DNA of 37,459 nucleotides. It comes from Candidatus Sifarchaeum marinoarchaea (GTDB lineage: Archaea > Asgardarchaeota > Sifarchaeia > Borrarchaeales > Borrarchaeaceae). Positions 64-9,786 of the stretch are shown here, piece by piece (positions within the stretch are counted from its first letter, which is position 1; each line of letters starts with the position of its first letter). Below the pieces are notes generated by a model. The model saw only the letters and a list, made by a program, of their open reading frames with translations. It had not been told where the DNA came from and did not search any database. Location: NCBI GenBank assembly GCA_016294985.1, contig JAECRW010000002.1:1-37459 (forward strand), read 5' to 3'. The translations under genes and the position numbers were made by a program.

Positions 64-165
64 CCGATGCACCTCCAAGATTAAGTTTAGCTAGTAGTAT
101 GGAAACAACTTACATAAAGCCTTTTTTAAAAAGAGTTCGCCAGTTAAAATTAGAGTAGGGCAGTT

Positions 166-930
166 CTACATCTTTCCTTTAAAACAAGGGAAGAACCATA
201 GATCACCACTAGCGTAACTAGAGTCATATCTTGCGATATCAGCAGCAGTTAATTCTTTAAAAGCGCGTTTAGCACGTTCTTTTGACCAACCTGCTTGCAT
301 GACGTCTGCCAGTGTCAACCAACCTTTTTCTGCTGCAAGATTAAGAACCTCACGGAGGTCATCACTTAGAGCCACATCAACAAATTCCACAAGCTTAACA
401 CCAGATTTCAGTTTTTTTATCCCTGGAATTACTTTTTGTTTCTCAAGTTTTTTAACCGTTTTTTCTACATCTTGAGGCGAACTCTTCACACCCATTGTTT
501 TTAATTCCGCCAAGAGCTCTGCAATAGAAACAAGACCTCCTGTCTCGTCTAATTTGTTCTCCCCAATCAACAAGATTTTTTCAGAGAGTTTATCAAAGTA
601 TTTTCCTTTGAAAAGTAAAGGCTTGGTTAGCTTTTCACCAGGAAGAGGAGGCAGTCCTGCTTCGACTCTCATCTGTCGATATTTTTCAAGGATTGCAGCA
701 GGCATCGTGCATACATCAGTCCCATATTTTTTTTCAATTCTTTCTAAGCCTTTTTTCAACTCTGCAATTCTTTCCATATCAGCTTCAAGATCCTGAAACT
801 GAAGTGACTTTTCAAATCCTCTGTATGCATCCTCCTTTGGCGAAATTTGTTCTATATTCGCACCGCATTTAGGACAAAATTTTGCATCATCAGGAAGTGA
901 TGTACCACATTTAGGACAATATGGACTCAT
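166..930 (-). CDS. Zinc-ribbon protein with ESCRT-II EAP30 (Vps22/Snf8-Vps36)-like tandem winged-helix body
   Basis: N-terminal CPKCG...CPKCG zinc ribbon; the rest parallels Snf8/EAP30 layout (GGLVSIAELLAEL...QDVEKTVKKLEK...GIKKLKSGVKLVEFV...LNLAAEKGWLTLADVMQAGWSKERAKRAFKELT...DLWFFPCF). Confidence 0.6.
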   Translation of the reverse strand: MSPYCPKCGTSLPDDAKFCPKCGANIEQISPKEDAYRGFEKSLQFQDLEADMERIAELKKGLERIEKKYGTDVCTMPAAILEKYRQMRVEAGLPPLPGEKLTKPLLFKGKYFDKLSEKILLIGENKLDETGGLVSIAELLAELKTMGVKSSPQDVEKTVKKLEKQKVIPGIKKLKSGVKLVEFVDVALSDDLREVLNLAAEKGWLTLADVMQAGWSKERAKRAFKELTAADIARYDSSYASGDLWFFPCFKGKM

Positions 931-986
931 TAAAATCCCTTCTTTGGCATAAATAGTATCTATAATGAATTTAATTTTGAGGGAAA

Positions 987-1583
987 TTATAATTCAGTTT
1001 CTTTTCCTTTTTTTGAGACTTCCTTACTTTTCTTGTTTGAATCTGTCACATCATCTGAATAGACAGAGTTTGTATCTTTTTCCAGAGAAGTTTCCTCTTG
1101 AAAGTCAGATTCTGTAGTCTCTCCCGTAAGAGGCGAAGGCGATACTTGAGAGTCAATTTCTGCTGGAATGGTGCCAAGTTTTTCATCAGCCTCACGAGTT
1201 TGCTTGATATGTTGTTCAAGATTGCTCATAATACCCATTACTTTTGCTGGATCGATTTCTTCAGAAGAAGAAGTTGTCCCTAAAAGTGCTGAAACCTCGG
1301 GAAGTATTATCAGATATTCAATCATACTTTCTGCCCTACTGAGCTTCATAATCTCATTTTTTATATCATTTTGTTCGTCTGTTATTAGTTGACATTCCTC
1401 TAGGAGTCTAATAGCTTCCTCCTTGTCACCTGCCGCTTTAGCTTCTTGTGCGGCAATGTATTTAGTTCGAAACTGTTTTTCCAGTTGTGCTCTTCGCTTT
1501 TCTAACTGGGCAATAGCTTTTTTGATCGAATAACTGAGTCTTATTTGCTTTTCAGTATTACTTTGACTATTCCATATTCCCAT
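987..1583 (-). CDS. Snf7/ESCRT-III-like coiled-coil protein
   Basis: Basic N-terminal helical hairpin (KKAIAQLEKRRAQLEKQFRTKYIAAQEAKAAGDKEEAIRLLEECQ), a later helix (PAKVMGIMSNLEQHIKQTREADEKL) and a low-complexity charged tail; same orientation as the EAP30-like gene. Confidence 0.5.
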   Translation of the reverse strand: MGIWNSQSNTEKQIRLSYSIKKAIAQLEKRRAQLEKQFRTKYIAAQEAKAAGDKEEAIRLLEECQLITDEQNDIKNEIMKLSRAESMIEYLIILPEVSALLGTTSSSEEIDPAKVMGIMSNLEQHIKQTREADEKLGTIPAEIDSQVSPSPLTGETTESDFQEETSLEKDTNSVYSDDVTDSNKKSKEVSKKGKETEL

Positions 1584-1636
1584 TTAAGACGCCTTTGACC
1601 GCTTTATTCAATAAAAATGAGCACACGGACCTTAAT

Positions 1637-2665
1637 TTACTTTTTGAATATTTGTTCTAATGCACGCCATAAATGATCAGATGTCGGTCTTGGTATCTCT
1701 CTGTACTCATTCTCCTTTGTATAGATCTTGCGTAATTGTGGATCTCCTACGAATTCACCAATTATACGTGCAGCTATATTTTCGTTCTCCAGTTTTTTTA
1801 CAATTGTTGGGGCCTTTTCTGGGCTTGCTGAAATGATTAAACATCCAGAACTAATTAGTTGAAATGGATCGATTCCAAAAACCTCACAGATCGCTTTTGT
1901 TTCCGAAGCTAGTGGGATTAACTCTTCGTGAATATGTAAACCAAGTTGAGAGGCATCCGCAATCTCATGGAGGCCCAAAAATATACCTCCTTCTGTGGGA
2001 TCATGCATTGCGTTGATGCCTCCCACCTTCATCGCAATTTGAGAATCTTTTACCACGCTAATTTGTTTAATGAAGTTTTTTGCCCGTTTAACAACGGTTT
2101 TTTCCAAATGTTGGCTAAGCACACTTTCCATTTCCTCAGCTAATATTGACGTGCCTTCCAACCCAACACTCTTTGTGACTATAATCTGATCGCCAGGTTT
2201 TGCTCCATGAGAAGTTACATAATGATCTATTGATGTCTCTCCAACCATAATCCCAACAACAATTGGTCTACTAATACCAGGCGTAATTTCAGTATGACCT
2301 CCAGCTACGGTTATATTCAGTTCTTTTGCTGCAGTATCAATTTGTGAAATAATTTGGTCTAATACTGCTCTATGATCGATGTCTGCTTTATCAGGCAATA
2401 AAATCGTTGTTAAGTACCAGAGTGGAGTGGCACCACAAGTTGCCACATCATTTGCATTAATGTGAACTGAAAGCCAGCCAACGCTCTCTAAGCTACCTGT
2501 TATGGGATCCGTTGTCACAACAATCACCTTTCCATTCATTTTGATAATTGCTGCGTCTTCACCTATGCCAGGCGCAAGTAGGAGACGTGGATTTTGCACC
2601 CCCAAGTGTTCAAAAACAATAGTTCGTAAGACATCCATAGGTATTTTTCCGGGAGGGAATGCCAT
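1637..2665 (-). CDS. AIR synthase-related / HypE-like protein
   Basis: HypE/PurM-type motifs (GIGEDAAIIKMNGKVIVVTTDPITG, VTKSVGLEGTSILAEE, MHDPTEGGIFLGLHEIA). ATG at 2665 has a GGAGG ~9 nt upstream, so it is preferred over the TTG at 2671. Confidence 0.8.
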   Translation of the reverse strand: MAFPPGKIPMDVLRTIVFEHLGVQNPRLLLAPGIGEDAAIIKMNGKVIVVTTDPITGSLESVGWLSVHINANDVATCGATPLWYLTTILLPDKADIDHRAVLDQIISQIDTAAKELNITVAGGHTEITPGISRPIVVGIMVGETSIDHYVTSHGAKPGDQIIVTKSVGLEGTSILAEEMESVLSQHLEKTVVKRAKNFIKQISVVKDSQIAMKVGGINAMHDPTEGGIFLGLHEIADASQLGLHIHEELIPLASETKAICEVFGIDPFQLISSGCLIISASPEKAPTIVKKLENENIAARIIGEFVGDPQLRKIYTKENEYREIPRPTSDHLWRALEQIFKK

Positions 2666-2753
2666 TAACAAGCTCCTCCATTATAATCTCTTTTTTGAGA
2701 AAGACATATGATTGAAGAAATCTTTTGAAGTATAATCGACTATCTCAACGAGA

Positions 2754-2761
2754 TTTAAAAA
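2754..2761 (+). promoter_or_regulatory. Candidate TATA box upstream of the metallo-beta-lactamase gene
   Basis: cgagaTTTAAAAAttgg; TATA centre ~29 nt before the TTG start at 2786, consistent with a leaderless transcript. Confidence 0.4.
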
Positions 2762-2785
2762 TTGGTATGGGCGTGATGAAACCAA

Positions 2786-3748
2786 TTGAAGCAGGACAAT
2801 ATTCATAGAGTTCGTCTTCCTGTTCCTTTCTTTGTTAGGCATGTTTACGCCCATTTAATTGAAAATCATGATAATTCAAGTTTGGTTTTAATCGATTGTG
2901 GCCCCGCGACTGAAGAGGCGTTTAACACACTTACCACTTATGTCCAATCTATCGGATACTCTATGGATGATATCGAGGCATGCATAGTTACACACTCTCA
3001 TTATGAACATTATGGCCTGTTTAAAAAAATTAAAGATGAGTGTAATGCACAAATCTTTGCGCATCAGGATATTATCACCTCTACGTCTGACTTAAAGGAC
3101 GATCTTTCGTTGAGATCCGAGTTACTTGTTACAAATGGGATGCCAATAGTAACGGTAAACCAGTTTCTGAAAACGTATCAAGACATTATAAAGAATACGC
3201 CCATGACTGATATTGATAGAATGTTAACTCACGAAGAATCTATTTTCACAAATTCTCTGAAATTGCGAATTATTTGGACTCCAGGGCATAGCGCAGATCA
3301 TATTTGCATATATAATGAAAAATCAAGGACAATGTTTACAGGAGATCATATTATCTCAAATGTTACGCCTCAAATCGGTCACAGATGTATAGAACAACTA
3401 GAAGATCCTCTAAAAACGTATCAACAATCTCTTCAAGAGTTGTTAAACTATGATATTGTAATCGCTTATCCCGGTCATAACGAGACGATTGAAAATGCTC
3501 ATAAGCGAATACTAGAGATTTTAAGACATCATAATTCTCGGGAAAGGTGGATTTTAGAAACTCTAGAGAACAAAAAACTAACAGCGTTCGAAATTTCAAA
3601 AAGAGTTTTCGGAGAGAATCAACCACTTATTGGGAATATAATTTCTTGTACTGAAACAATTGCGCATCTTAAATCACTAAGGGGGCAAGGTAAGGTTAAT
3701 AAGATAAACAAAGACGGAATTTACTCGTATGAGAGGTCATACAAATAG
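2786..3748 (+). CDS. Metallo-beta-lactamase-fold hydrolase with C-terminal winged helix (LACTB2-like)
   Basis: THSHYEH, TPGHSADH, FTGDHII, YPGHNE motifs; C-terminal helical winged-helix-like extension. Confidence 0.8.
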   Translation: MKQDNIHRVRLPVPFFVRHVYAHLIENHDNSSLVLIDCGPATEEAFNTLTTYVQSIGYSMDDIEACIVTHSHYEHYGLFKKIKDECNAQIFAHQDIITSTSDLKDDLSLRSELLVTNGMPIVTVNQFLKTYQDIIKNTPMTDIDRMLTHEESIFTNSLKLRIIWTPGHSADHICIYNEKSRTMFTGDHIISNVTPQIGHRCIEQLEDPLKTYQQSLQELLNYDIVIAYPGHNETIENAHKRILEILRHHNSRERWILETLENKKLTAFEISKRVFGENQPLIGNIISCTETIAHLKSLRGQGKVNKINKDGIYSYERSYK

Positions 3749-3799
3749 GAAATTTCAAAATCAAGAAAATCCTAAATATGTTTAGATTGATATGAGCGC

Positions 3800-4219
3800 T
3801 TAAATCTTTTTCATGACACCCTTAAGGTCTCTCGGGCGTTTGCGTCGTTTTAATACCACCAGTTTTCTGGTGGACGGATTGAATATGGCGAGATTCACAT
3901 GATTATTAAGAAATCGTTTGAGCGAATCAGGAATCATCTTCCATGTTTCGTCAAGAAGACCTAAGTGAATGTTAGCGCCCATAAAAGATGCATAAAAAAG
4001 TGTTTGACCCACAGATTCAAAAACATCGGATAATGACCCCATTTGAACTCTCAAAATGATACCCATAGCAATTTTATCTCGATGATCATACGCAACGAAG
4101 ATAGATCTGTCACTTAGATATTCTTCTTCTATTTTCGAAAAGTTATGCATTAGGGTTTTTTTCAAGCCTTCGTGCAACAGTTGTCGGTGCTTTTCATCTG
4201 GAGGCATGTACATCATCAT
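3800..4219 (-). CDS. Hypothetical protein, possible PD-(D/E)XK-like fold
   Basis: 139 aa ORF with conserved-looking block LRVQMGSLSDVFESVGQTLFYASFMGANIHLGLLDETWKMIP. Confidence 0.55.
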   Translation of the reverse strand: MMMYMPPDEKHRQLLHEGLKKTLMHNFSKIEEEYLSDRSIFVAYDHRDKIAMGIILRVQMGSLSDVFESVGQTLFYASFMGANIHLGLLDETWKMIPDSLKRFLNNHVNLAIFNPSTRKLVVLKRRKRPRDLKGVMKKI

Positions 4220-4583
4220 ATGAAGTTTACATACACTAATATAAATATCCTTTTTTTAAAACGAATTTCAAGAAAGTCCACAGCGTGGTAGAATATCTGC
4301 TTAGTGAAATGTTAAAAACCTATGAATATTCTAATTCATAACTTTTTAATTCCGAGAAATAAGCGCTGTAAGAAATGGTTTTATACGTGGTTTTAATGTT
4401 GAAAATGTTTGAGTAGAATTAGTTCATATCAGAATTCAATGAAAAAAGACAGAATGAGCAAATTTCGTAATTTTTCTAAAAACGCAGTTAAACAAAAATT
4501 ACGGGTAAATCCGTTTAAGAGAATTTCTTTATAGACTAAGATGTAATCTTTGCCCTATAAATTTTTAATTTCTTAAGCAGTAA

Positions 4584-4805
4584 TTATAGAGCATTATTTT
4601 CGACGACGTACTGCGTGCTTCCCTTTATACGAACCAACGATGTTAAATAACCTGCGATCCTATTACGCAGTTTTTTTGATTGAAAATCAAGGATTTCATC
4701 TAATACCATTTTATTTTTTTCAAAATCATCGTTAATTAAATCACCGTACTTTTCCAAAAGATTCTTGGCAATTCGTTTGATATGTGAAGGCCTAATCTTT
4801 CCCAT
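4584..4805 (-). CDS. rps17e: 30S ribosomal protein S17e
   Basis: MGKIRPSHIKRIAKNLLEKYGDLINDDFEKNKMVLDEILDFQSKKLRNRIAGYLTSLV matches the S17e family pattern. Confidence 0.9.
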   Translation of the reverse strand: MGKIRPSHIKRIAKNLLEKYGDLINDDFEKNKMVLDEILDFQSKKLRNRIAGYLTSLVRIKGSTQYVVENNAL

Positions 4806-4956
4806 TTATTTATTCCTCAGGTGTTGTATTTGTTCGTCCATGCACAATTCAGTTTAATAACTTTTTCTTTGAAGGAATGATTGAAAGGATTGCCCTTACT
4901 TTTTTAAATGAATGCATCGACTTGCAAGTATGAAAAATTTTGTGGCGTGAGAGTCT

Positions 4957-6123
4957 ATGAGGATCATTTCAGAGAGAATGAAGGATATTCCTCCATCTGG
5001 AACATTAAAAATGCTTGCAAAGTCCAAAGAACTGGAACAAAAAGGAAGAAAAATTATACATTTAGAGATAGGCCAGCCGGATTTTGACACGCCCCCACAT
5101 ATCAAAGAGGCTGCAATCAATGCGTTGAAAGAAGGATTCACAAAATATACCTCAAGCCAGGGAATCCCACAATTATTAGCGGCAATTGCGGAAGACACAA
5201 GCATGGGAGGTGTATCCATCACACCAAAAAATGTTATTGTAACCCCTGGTGCAAAACATGCAATTCTTCTGACTATGCTTGCAACTTTGAACCCTGGAGA
5301 TGAAGTTTTAGTTCCAACACCAGCTTGGCCCACGTATTTTACTACTATAAAAATGGCAGGTGGCGTTGATATTCAAATTCCAGTTGATACTTATGATGAA
5401 AGTATTGTGGATAAATTAAGGGATGGGATTACAAGAAAAACTAAAATGATTCTTATTAACTCACCAAATAATCCATTAGGAGACGTTATGGACAAAGAAG
5501 TATTGAACGCAATCTATCAACTTGCAATAGAACACGATCTGTTGATTCTTTCTGATGAAATCTATCAAAAACTTGTTTATGATATTGGTGAAAGAGCAGT
5601 TAGCATATTATCTATAGACAAAGCGTGTGAAAGAACGATAATTATCAATGGTTTTTCGAAAGCGTATTCTATGACGGGCTGGCGATTGGGATATGCTGTA
5701 ACATCCCCAGAGATAGTACAAAATATGATTCGAATTCAACAAAATTCTACTACATGCCCAACTAGTTTCGTACAGGCCGCTGGCATTGTTGCTTTGCAAG
5801 GCTCTCAAGAGCCGGTGAAACGTATGATAGAGCGATTTAATGAACGGAGAAAAGAAATAACGCGTTTATTAAATAGTATAGACGGTGTAAAATGTAGTCT
5901 CCCAAAAGGTGCGTTCTATGTATTTCCTGACTTCTCCGAACTGAAACTTCCATCAGAAATATTTGCATTGAAACTACTTGAAAACAAAGGAGTAGCTACA
6001 GCGCCAGGTGTAGTATTCGGAAAAGGTGGCGAATATCATCTAAGATTATCTTATGCCAATGCGCTAGAAGAAATACGTCGCGGAGCAGGGCTTATTAAAG
6101 AACTCGTAGAAGGTGAAATTTAG
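4957..6123 (+). CDS. Class I/II PLP-dependent aminotransferase (AspC-like)
   Basis: INSPNNPLG, SDEIYQ, NGFSKAYSMTGWRLGY (PLP-lysine motif). Confidence 0.9.
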   Translation: MRIISERMKDIPPSGTLKMLAKSKELEQKGRKIIHLEIGQPDFDTPPHIKEAAINALKEGFTKYTSSQGIPQLLAAIAEDTSMGGVSITPKNVIVTPGAKHAILLTMLATLNPGDEVLVPTPAWPTYFTTIKMAGGVDIQIPVDTYDESIVDKLRDGITRKTKMILINSPNNPLGDVMDKEVLNAIYQLAIEHDLLILSDEIYQKLVYDIGERAVSILSIDKACERTIIINGFSKAYSMTGWRLGYAVTSPEIVQNMIRIQQNSTTCPTSFVQAAGIVALQGSQEPVKRMIERFNERRKEITRLLNSIDGVKCSLPKGAFYVFPDFSELKLPSEIFALKLLENKGVATAPGVVFGKGGEYHLRLSYANALEEIRRGAGLIKELVEGEI

Positions 6124-6241
6124 AAATATGAGTTTCTCGAGTTTCGCAAAGTAAGTTAATGCTATATCGCGTTAAATTATCATATATTTCGATTAACCGA
6201 TAAACAGTGCATTCAGTAAGCAAATTTTTGAGGAAATTTCT

Positions 6242-6448
6242 GTGAAATCGGTAGATGAAAACAATAATTCATTGGGCGATGAAGACGGAATTCTAATAGA
6301 GGAACAAGAGGTATCTGGTTTTAAGTGTGGAGTTTGTGGGACAAATTTGAAAGTAAAAGTCTTTTATAAAGATGATAAATACTACAGAAGAATTTACTGC
6401 CCAAAATGTAAGTATAGTATCGCTCCATCTGAAAGACCGCCTCTTTGA
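6242..6448 (+). CDS. Small zinc-ribbon protein
   Basis: CGVCG...CPKC motif in a 68 aa ORF. Confidence 0.6.
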   Translation: MKSVDENNNSLGDEDGILIEEQEVSGFKCGVCGTNLKVKVFYKDDKYYRRIYCPKCKYSIAPSERPPL

Positions 6449-6575
6449 ACAATTTAGGCAGCCTTCTGTGTTCTTATTAATAAAAACAGTAAAGACATAG
6501 ACTAATGTCGATTAAAATTTAATCAACGAAAACAAAGTCGTAATCCTTGTGGTGTCATTACAAAGGATCTTTTAT

Positions 6576-7106
6576 CTAATCTTTTCTTAATTTCAAGATT
6601 TTTTTAATAATGAGAGAAGAACTATTTAATTCTTCGCTACCGAATTTTGATAGCCTCACAATTTTACAATCAATATTTCTCTCTTTTAGCTCTTCTTCAA
6701 GCCAAGTTATTGAAGGCCATTGATCATATCCAAGTGCAACAATATCTGGACGTATTTCTTCCAAAATTTTCAGTTTATCTCCTCCTTCCGTGCCTAAAAC
6801 GGCCTTATCAACGGGTTTTACTGAACTAACGAGGGCTCTTCTGTGTTCTTCAGAAAATATAGGTCTTTTTCCTTTCATTGCTTCCACGGAAGAATCTCGT
6901 GCAACAACAACTATCAAATAGGCGTTTTCTCCTCCCAATTTCTTTGCTTCTTCGAAATATTTTACATGACCATAGTGGAGAATATCAAACGTCCCAAAAC
7001 ACAAGACGCATTTCCTTTGAAGGGTTTCTGAAGGATATATTCGTTCCGACAAATTGAGCACCAAATTATTCAATAAATAAAACTTGTCATAGTCTCGAAG
7101 TATCAC
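6576..7106 (-). CDS. ribL: Cytidylyltransferase-family protein, probable archaeal FAD synthase (RibL-like)
   Basis: FGTFDILHYGHVKYFEEAKKLGG (HxGH), LGYDQW and SSSLIIKKI motifs. Confidence 0.75.
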   Translation of the reverse strand: MILRDYDKFYLLNNLVLNLSERIYPSETLQRKCVLCFGTFDILHYGHVKYFEEAKKLGGENAYLIVVVARDSSVEAMKGKRPIFSEEHRRALVSSVKPVDKAVLGTEGGDKLKILEEIRPDIVALGYDQWPSITWLEEELKERNIDCKIVRLSKFGSEELNSSSLIIKKILKLRKD

Positions 7107-7312
7107 AAGAGAGATAAGTCTGATTTATGGAAGATTTATTATGGATGAAATAACAACTTATTTGTTTAACGCGATATTGCTAATGTTTAGACAGATATGA
7201 GAGAATATTGTTTACAACGAAATTTAAAAAAGCGTCTGTAAGTATGATAAATGTAAGTTATTCTAATGAATGTAGTAGAATTGTATTTATGAAATCATAT
7301 TCTTGTTATAAA

Positions 7313-7318
7313 GGAGGT
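7313..7318 (+). promoter_or_regulatory. Shine-Dalgarno of the cdc48-like gene
   Basis: aaGGAGGT, 7 nt before GTG at 7326. Confidence 0.6.
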
Positions 7319-7325
7319 ACTTTTG

Positions 7326-9509
7326 GTGGCCGATAAAACTATTACCGTGAAAACTGCGGAGGCACGACAGAGAGATGTAGGTCGTGGGAAGGTTCGTATT
7401 GATGGAGCAGCAATGCGTTCCATAGGCGTCACTACAGGTGATGTTATCGAAATACAAGGGAAAAAAACAACTGCCGCTATTGCGTGGCCAGCATATCCCG
7501 AAGATCAGGGAAGTGGGATCATTCGGATGGATGGAATCATCCGTAGAAATTGTGGTGTCACGCTAGGCGAAAAAGTAAAGATTAAGAAAGCTGATGTTAA
7601 AGCTGCGCGTTCTATCACAATAGCTCCTACTTCTATGCCACTTTCAATCGACTATGGCTTTGAGAATTTCGTTAAAAGAAAGTTGTTGGGCTATCCAGTT
7701 TGTAGAGGGGATACGGTGCTCATCCCTATTTTGGGAAGGGCAATGCCTTTCACTATAGTTTCATCCACACCAAAAGGAATCTGCTTGGTAACAGATGCTA
7801 CATCCTTAAATGTGAGTGAAAAGCCACTGGCTGACACTGAGACTGGCTTTCCAAGAGTAAGTTATGAGGATATTGGAGGACTTTCTGAGGAGATTATAAG
7901 AATTCGTGAAATGGTTGAATTGCCATTAAAACATCCAGAACTGTTTAAACGATTGGGTATTGATCCACCAAAAGGTGTTTTGTTACATGGTCCCCCAGGA
8001 TGTGGAAAAACACTTATTGCAAAGGCAGTTGCTAGTGAATCAGATGCGCATTTCATTCCAATCAATGGACCCGAAATTATGAGTAAATTTTATGGAGAAT
8101 CGGAGCAAAGATTACGCCAACTCTTTAAAGAAGCGGAAGAAAATGCGCCAAGTATAGTTTTTATAGATGAGATTGATGCTATAGCACCTAAAAGAGAAGA
8201 AGTAACTGGAGAGGTAGAAAGAAGAGTTGTTGCACAACTTTTAGCCTTAATGGACGGATTGGTGGCTCGTGGCCAAGTGATTGTGGTAGGCGCCACTAAT
8301 AGAGTTAATGCAATAGACCCCGCCTTACGGAGACCTGGAAGGTTCGATAGAGAAATTGAAATTGGTGTTCCAGATAAAATTGGCCGTCAAGAAATTCTAC
8401 TTATTCACACACGTGGTATGCCCTTAAATAAAGATGTTCAATTGAGTAAAATGTCCGAAATAACTCATGGTTTTGTAGGGGCTGATCTTACCGCATTAGG
8501 CCGTGAAGCCGCTATGAAATCATTACGAAGATATCTCCCTAGAATCAATTTAGATGAAGATGTCATCCCCCCAGAGATACTAGATACACTTGAAGTTAAT
8601 ATGGAGGACTTCTTAAATGCTTTAAAAGAAGTCCAACCCTCCGCAATCAGAGAAGTCCAGATAGAAGTTCCAAATGTCCATTGGGAAGATATTGGTGGCC
8701 TTGATGAAGCGAAGCAAGAATTAATTGAAGCTGTCGAATGGCCTTTAAAAGAGGCTGACGCATTCGTGAGATTAGGTATAGAACCACCAAAAGGGATTTT
8801 ATTATATGGCCCACCTGGATGTGGAAAAACTCTACTAGCGAGGGCTGTTGCAACAGAAAGCGAAGCGAATTTCATAAGCATCAAAGGTCCGGAGGTTCTG
8901 TCAAAATGGGTTGGCGAATCCGAAAAAGCAATAAGAGAAGTCTTCCGAAAGGCCAGAATGGCAGCGCCAGCCATTATTTTCTTTGATGAAATTGATGCAA
9001 TAGTGCCTAGACGAGGAATAGGCTATGGTGACTCTCACGTAACCGAAAGAGTCATTAGCCAGATTTTGACGGAGATTGATGGTCTCGAATCTCTACAGGA
9101 TGTCGTAGTAATCGCTGCTACTAACCGCCCTGATATAGTTGATCCTGCTGTTCTTAGACCTGGTAGAACTGATCGCCTTATCCTAGTAGGACCACCTGAC
9201 AAAAACGCACGAGTTGAGATCTTTAAAATATATACACTTGATATGCCTATCACTGAAGATGTAGATATTGAAAAAATTGCAATGGCAGCAGAAGGCTACG
9301 CGGGGTCTGATATTGAGGCATTGTGTCGGGAAGCTGCTATGCTTGCACTAAGGGAAAATATGGACGTGCAGGAAGTAGAAGCACGACATTTCACTGAGGC
9401 AATGAAGAAAATCCATCCAACAGTTACTGCCGATGTAATCCGATGGTATGAAAGACAATCAGAACACTTCAGAAGGACGAAAATAAAAGCACAACCTCAG
9501 TTCGTTTAA
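7326..9509 (+). CDS. Cdc48/VAT-type AAA ATPase (N domain plus two AAA modules)
   Basis: Two Walker A motifs (GPPGCGKT), Walker B (FIDEID / FFDEID), SRH-type RRPGRFDRE / [11 protein letters not shown] start preferred from SD spacing (ORF track starts at TTG 7323). Confidence 0.95.
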
Positions 9510-9786
9510 CTAGTTTTTTCTTTTTTCTCATCTCAAAAAACGCCTTTTTCTTTTCATACTGCAGATTAGCAACTAGTTTTTAGAGTTTTAAGCCTGGCAA
9601 CTCAGAAGAAACCTTCTAAAAAAGGAAAAGTTTAAATTTTGAGGAAAACAAAAGCCGCTCAATGCAAACAAGTCAACTAAAGTTCAAAAAGAATAAAGTG
9701 GGCTCGCAATTCTATATAACATGCGTTCTATTTACATTTTGAAAATATCTAAGAAAGTAGAGGCCTAAAGAGCGACTGGTGTATTC

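Follow-up and report, generated by a model that had tools for sequence, protein, structure and literature searches.

ESCRT-II and ESCRT-III proteins of Asgard archaea, the diversity of their paralogues and the occurrence of winged-helix proteins with zinc ribbons are already part of the published record (PMC10936438). In that work, Makarova and colleagues reported further ESCRT-II paralogues and patchy domain fusions in Asgards, found Asgard ESCRT-II genes to travel with those of ESCRT-III and Vps4, and described cog.002441, a protein with two winged helices, a steadiness box and three zinc ribbons (PMC10936438). In yeast two-hybrid assays, Asgard Vps25 binds ESCRT-IIIB (PMC9192718).

Here, we describe two neighbouring genes, one for an EAP30 protein that opens with a zinc ribbon and one for an ESCRT-III-like protein, in a DNA stretch of 37,459 nucleotides (the window); no published description of such a pair was found in the open-access literature. 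The window belongs to an Asgard genome of Candidatus Borrarchaeum, estimated to be 69% complete, and an Asgard origin had been hinted at in an earlier reading of the letters alone (the sequence-only reading). Orthologues are present in named records of Candidatus Borrarchaeum weybense and Ca. B. yapensis and in one Borrarchaeota MAG, and Sun and colleagues have placed the lineage in class Sifarchaeia (PMC9723677).

The two proteins and their genes

The two genes are co-directional and separated by 56 bp (Table 1), and both open reading frames are found where the sequence-only reading had put an adjacent, same-strand pair. The start codon of the EAP30 gene is ATG in the window and TTG in the other three Borrarchaeum genomes; since a Shine-Dalgarno-like motif precedes it in all four, the zinc ribbon is translated as part of the EAP30 product.

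Table 1. Features of the gene pair; positions are counted from the first letter of the window
Feature	Position	Strand	Description
EAP30-protein gene	166..930	-	254 aa; Vps22/Vps36-type ESCRT-II paralogue with zinc ribbon
Winged helix 2, EAP30 protein	187..363	-	residues 190-248; AF2 model
Winged helix 1, EAP30 protein	385..591	-	residues 114-182; AF2 model and PF04157 match (residues 42-232)
N-terminal helical domain, EAP30 protein	658..840	-	residues 31-91; AF2 helices 31-75 and 78-91
Zinc ribbon	856..921	-	residues 4-25; C5-x2-C8-x10-C19-x2-C22; cysteines intact in 4/4 orthologues
Shine-Dalgarno-like GAAGGGA (AAAGAAGGGAT)	936..942	-	directly 5' of the EAP30-gene start codon; conserved in 4/4 genomes
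Gene for a probable divergent ESCRT-III (ESCRT-IIIB/Vps20-32-60-like)	987..1583	-	198 aa; upstream neighbour of the EAP30-protein gene
Acidic disordered tail, ESCRT-III-like protein	990..1160	-	residues 142-198; pLDDT <50; net charge -8; without MIM1-like motif
Helical hairpin, ESCRT-III-like protein	1305..1577	-	AF2 model; block pLDDT 96-98, residues 21-80

The product of the first gene is a genuine EAP30 protein, of the Vps22/Vps36 type within ESCRT-II, with an N-terminal zinc ribbon, and the sequence-only reading was right on both counts. The 254-aa protein scores 50.9 bits against Pfam EAP30 (PF04157; cut-off 26.8) and 40.8 bits against Zn_Ribbon_1 (PF13240; cut-off 25); the EAP30 match takes in the helical domain as well as the two winged helices and is thus not one to a generic winged helix. 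Among PDB sequences, the best hit was SNF8/Vps22 (3.7e-8), followed by yeast Vps22 (2.2e-5) and VPS36 (0.0015), and a profile built from the four orthologues gave 35 bits to SNF8 versus 18 bits to VPS36. In the AF2 model (mean pLDDT 80), the ribbon is followed by a pair of helices and then by the two winged helices. The top five PDB matches of this model in Foldseek are all Vps22/Vps36 chains (best 6.2e-10); as the model was built on an alignment of EAP30 relatives, this corroborates the fold but is no independent discovery of it.

The ribbon itself does not carry the signature of a ubiquitin-binding finger. The consensus of the NZF ubiquitin-binding finger is W-x-C-x2-C-T-F-x-N-x6-C-x2-C; on inspection of the sequence (PYCPKCGTSLPDDAKFCPKC), the C-x2-C-x10-C-x2-C spacing fits, but the W, TF and N residues that define an NZF (Npl4-type) finger are absent. 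No GLUE domain is found among the Pfam matches listed, and as only about 30 residues, those of the ribbon, precede the helical domain in the AF2 model, there is no room for one. Orthology to eukaryotic Vps36 is therefore rejected, on the missing GLUE domain and the lower VPS36 score: the two share the EAP30 fold, and yeast Vps36 also has an N-terminal zinc module, yet the N-terminal placement is the sole analogy between the ribbon and the GLUE/NZF part of Vps36. The same placement is all that would speak for the idea, put forward in the sequence-only reading, that the ribbon might take over from a ubiquitin- or membrane-binding N-terminus such as GLUE. Going by its published domain description, Asgard cog.002441 is similar in combining zinc ribbons with EAP30-type winged helices in one protein, and differs in having three ribbons where the Borrarchaeum protein has one.

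For the 198-aa neighbour, the sequence-only reading had proposed an ESCRT-III (Snf7)-like protein, of which the ESCRT-III character is upheld by profile-profile comparison and predicted fold, whereas the Pfam Snf7 match stays below the cut-off (18.1 bits, E 0.002; cut-off 27.3), with two orthologues scoring 14.9 and 12.2 bits over the same profile span, 3-128. In hhalign, the profile of the protein reached 94.0% probability to Asgard ESCRT-IIIB (residues 1-139) and 31-40% to the IIIA set, each reference set being labelled through the PDB match of a single member (IIIB/Snf7 and CHMP1B/CHMP2A). None of 40 column shuffles exceeded 4.8%, and the reversed profile gave 1.4%. The ESCRT-IIIA class was rejected on these figures. 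The AF2 model, built from four sequences, predicts helices at residues 3-51 and 54-93 that form the long helix 1-helix 2 hairpin core, and the best Foldseek match is Asgard ESCRT-IIIB (9ftl; E 5.8e-3, probability 1.00), followed by Snf7, CHMP, CdvB2 and PspA/Vipp1 filaments. Every one of these matches had an E above 0.001; the profile-profile comparison is the stronger test of identity. Taken together, profile and model support a divergent ESCRT-III whose closest class is Asgard ESCRT-IIIB (Vps20/32/60-like).

Besides its low Pfam score, the neighbour departs from Asgard ESCRT-IIIB in its C-terminus. A MIM1-like motif was found in none of the four tails, versus 54 of 65 canonical tails and a mean of 12.3 after shuffling; the pattern had initially matched 38 of 66 canonical tails, and the figures come from a looser version, tuned once on the canonical tails and run with the shuffled control. 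An LPSP in three orthologues is only a hint of a MIM2-type proline motif.

Distribution, descent and conservation

The sequence-only reading had pointed out that archaeal EAP30 proteins are chiefly known from Asgard lineages. In this phylum, ESCRT-II as such is no surprise: EAP30 proteins occur in 208 of the 232 genomes, and their presence alone is thus ordinary. What is restricted is the combination. Among the matches listed for the 232 Asgard genomes, ribbon and EAP30 were covered together only in the four Borrarchaeum copies, and among 87 EAP30 sequences inspected over their whole length, the same four alone have the C-x2-C...C-x2-C pair. For the 198-aa protein, the matches that a phylum-wide search gave beyond Borrarchaeum were unconvincing, with E values of 8e-4 or worse. 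A genome scan for relatives beyond Borrarchaeum returned the three Borrarchaeum records and unrelated ribbon proteins, and an NCBIfam search returned no useful match. Viral carriage was rejected as well: in two scans of viral contigs, the single match was to a generic ribbon, and the neighbour had none.

Within the genus, the pair is adjacent and co-directional in all four genomes. The copies are separated by a synonymous divergence of about 1, across which the pair, the ribbon cysteines and the ribosome-binding site have been retained, and dN/dS is 0.13-0.19 for the ribbon-EAP30 gene and 0.19-0.37 for its neighbour (0.09-0.13 for Vps22), which indicates purifying selection on both. Close linkage alone does not set the pair apart, however: a canonical Vps22 gene adjoins a canonical ESCRT-III gene in three genomes of another Asgard family (f8; L005, L006, L007).

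The ribbon-EAP30 protein is 43% identical to Borrarchaeum Vps22 and shares with Asgard Vps22 the helical domain and two winged helices, but it has the additional ribbon and a different genomic setting, Vps22 adjoining Vps28/UEV genes and the ribbon-EAP30 gene adjoining that for ESCRT-III. In the tree, the four ribbon-EAP30 proteins group together (100/100) and fall outside the clade of Asgard Vps22. The AU test rejected their grouping with Borrarchaeum Vps22 (p-AU 0.032) and did not reject their joining to second EAP30 proteins that other families have without a ribbon (p-AU 0.206 and 0.136), with the caveat that the tested groups were named only after the tree had been seen and that the deep branches are weak; the position of the clade among the second EAP30 groups has a support of 48/31 at the deepest fork. 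This is moderate evidence that the protein lies outside the Vps22 clade and is probably no recent Vps22 copy; a recent duplication was rejected as its origin on the same test, in a tree whose branches are long. In other Asgards, these second EAP30 proteins (e.g., G083, L195:9365-10072) have a similar N-terminal part (AYKKFADKL... YGTDIKLMPAEMQNKYREMR) but, unlike those of Borrarchaeum, carry no ribbon and, at the loci read, have no ESCRT-III neighbour. In several of these families, the second EAP30 gene has a recurrent neighbour of its own (L082, L100, L091, L101; nearby in L092), whose product has an N-terminus resembling the metallo-beta-lactamase fold (LDCGI... SHAHIDHSGY).

The window also bears traces of mixing. 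Across positions 160-9600, informative sites pair it with genome G180 almost throughout, apart from sharply bounded tracts at about 300-650 and 2600-3750, where they pair with G181; one such G181-like tract lies within the EAP30 gene, where it covers winged helix 1. The mosaic looks like recombination between Borrarchaeum species.

The canonical ESCRT set alongside

The sequence-only reading had suggested looking for Vps4, Vps25 and Vps28 elsewhere in the genome, and all three turned up on a single contig (C46): Vps4 with MIT, AAA and Vps4_C matches, Vps25 (PF05871, 73 bits) and Vps28 (45.9 bits), together with the canonical Vps22 and a ubiquitin-conjugating/UEV protein with a weak match to the Vps23 core. 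A strong Snf7-family ESCRT-III protein is encoded on another contig (C2). Given this canonical set, the ribbon-EAP30/ESCRT-III pair is an addition and not a replacement.

Three sister Borrarchaeum genomes encode yet another EAP30 protein (386 aa; PF04157, 62.5 bits; L070:7823-12093, also L073 and L067), the gene of which sits between those for an SPFH/Band 7 zinc-ribbon protein and a 495-aa zinc-ribbon protein. FtsZ-family genes are present in Borrarchaeum, and cell division need not, therefore, depend on ESCRT; besides the FtsZ-like genes, the genus has a divergent frame of the tubulin family, about 475-515 aa long (PF00091, 66-68 bits; G000:C117:757-1311, G181:C6:161789-162343). One genome of the same class (G183, 80% complete) has a tubulin/FtsZ-family gene but no EAP30 match and no ESCRT-III above the cut-off, possibly through loss of ESCRT or through the incompleteness of the genome.

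Proposed role and competing explanations

We consider it somewhat probable (about 0.55) that the pair is a Borrarchaeum-specific accessory ESCRT-II/ESCRT-III unit, a reading based on family and fold, conserved adjacency, purifying selection and the complete canonical set alongside; from family and position, its role would be in ESCRT-II/ESCRT-III nucleation. The ribbon-EAP30 protein would enter ESCRT-II assembly via its helical domain and winged helices, either as a partner of Vps22 or as a dimer of its own, and would recruit and nucleate the Vps20-like ESCRT-IIIB neighbour, much as ESCRT-II does with ESCRT-IIIB/Vps20. The ribbon is a putative adaptor that would connect the unit with a specific cargo, with a protein or with a site on the membrane. 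As the usual Vps4-docking tail is absent, we propose that the neighbour seeds or caps the canonical ESCRT-III filaments rather than serving as a main Vps4 substrate. The pair may form a side branch in which the ribbon is a separate input and the neighbour a dedicated first ESCRT-III subunit; such a step would fit the binding of Asgard Vps25 to ESCRT-IIIB (PMC9192718) and the joint travel of ESCRT-II and ESCRT-III genes (PMC10936438). It counts against the proposal that contact with ESCRT-III is made chiefly by Vps25, and not by an EAP30 protein, in the ESCRT-II of both Asgards and eukaryotes; the neighbour's Snf7 score below the cut-off and its fold matches at E above 0.001 weigh against it, too.

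Other explanations have to be weighed against this. A zinc ribbon joined to winged helices is a frequent design among archaeal transcription factors, and the protein is mildly basic (pI 8.6), as might be expected had it left ESCRT to become a nucleic acid-binding regulator. We find this very improbable: the match to EAP30 spans its helical domain and the two winged helices, all of the best folds come from ESCRT-II, winged helix 2 is neutral and the canonical Vps22 just as basic (pI 9.2), and the gene is coupled to one of ESCRT-III type in four genomes. It is also quite improbable that we are looking at an ordinary lineage-specific pair of redundant ESCRT-II and ESCRT-III copies, one of which picked up a ribbon by chance. 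Asgard ESCRT families are indeed patchy, with many domain combinations that include winged helices and zinc ribbons (PMC10936438), and similar ribbons occur in many Asgard proteins; against this, synonymous sites have diverged without any of the four genomes losing the pair, the cysteines or the ribosome-binding site, and the AU test speaks against a recent copy of Vps22.

The reading that comes closest to the eukaryotic system is that of a functional Vps36 counterpart, in an obligate heterodimer with the canonical Vps22 and with the ribbon recruiting in the manner of GLUE/NZF. The canonical Vps22 does coexist with another EAP30 protein that has a zinc module at its N-terminus, and Odinarchaeal Vps22 was found to be monomeric by authors who allowed for an undiscovered partner (PMC9192718). 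Still, the sequence is nearer to SNF8/Vps22 than to VPS36, the space before the helical domain cannot hold a GLUE domain, and the ribbon is devoid of NZF-type residues; the 386-aa EAP30 protein would be an equally good candidate for the partner, and a gene that adjoins ESCRT-III and not Vps22 favors a separate unit. We therefore regard a Vps36 counterpart as unlikely. A two-subunit EAP30 stalk of Vps22 and the zinc-module protein, parallel to eukaryotic Vps22-Vps36 and with a dedicated Vps20-like ESCRT-III alongside, strikes us as doubtful, too; if true, it would mean that heterodimeric ESCRT-II is not a eukaryotic invention alone.

The accessory unit that we favor is of interest in the wider evolution of ESCRT. 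Borrarchaeum has three EAP30 proteins in one genus, one of them zinc-tagged and positionally coupled to an ESCRT-III of its own, and these provide an expressible set for asking whether archaea had already split ESCRT-II into specialized EAP30 subunits. The pair bears on whether a zinc module can substitute for the GLUE/NZF part of Vps36 and on how eukaryotes acquired their additional ESCRT-II subunits.
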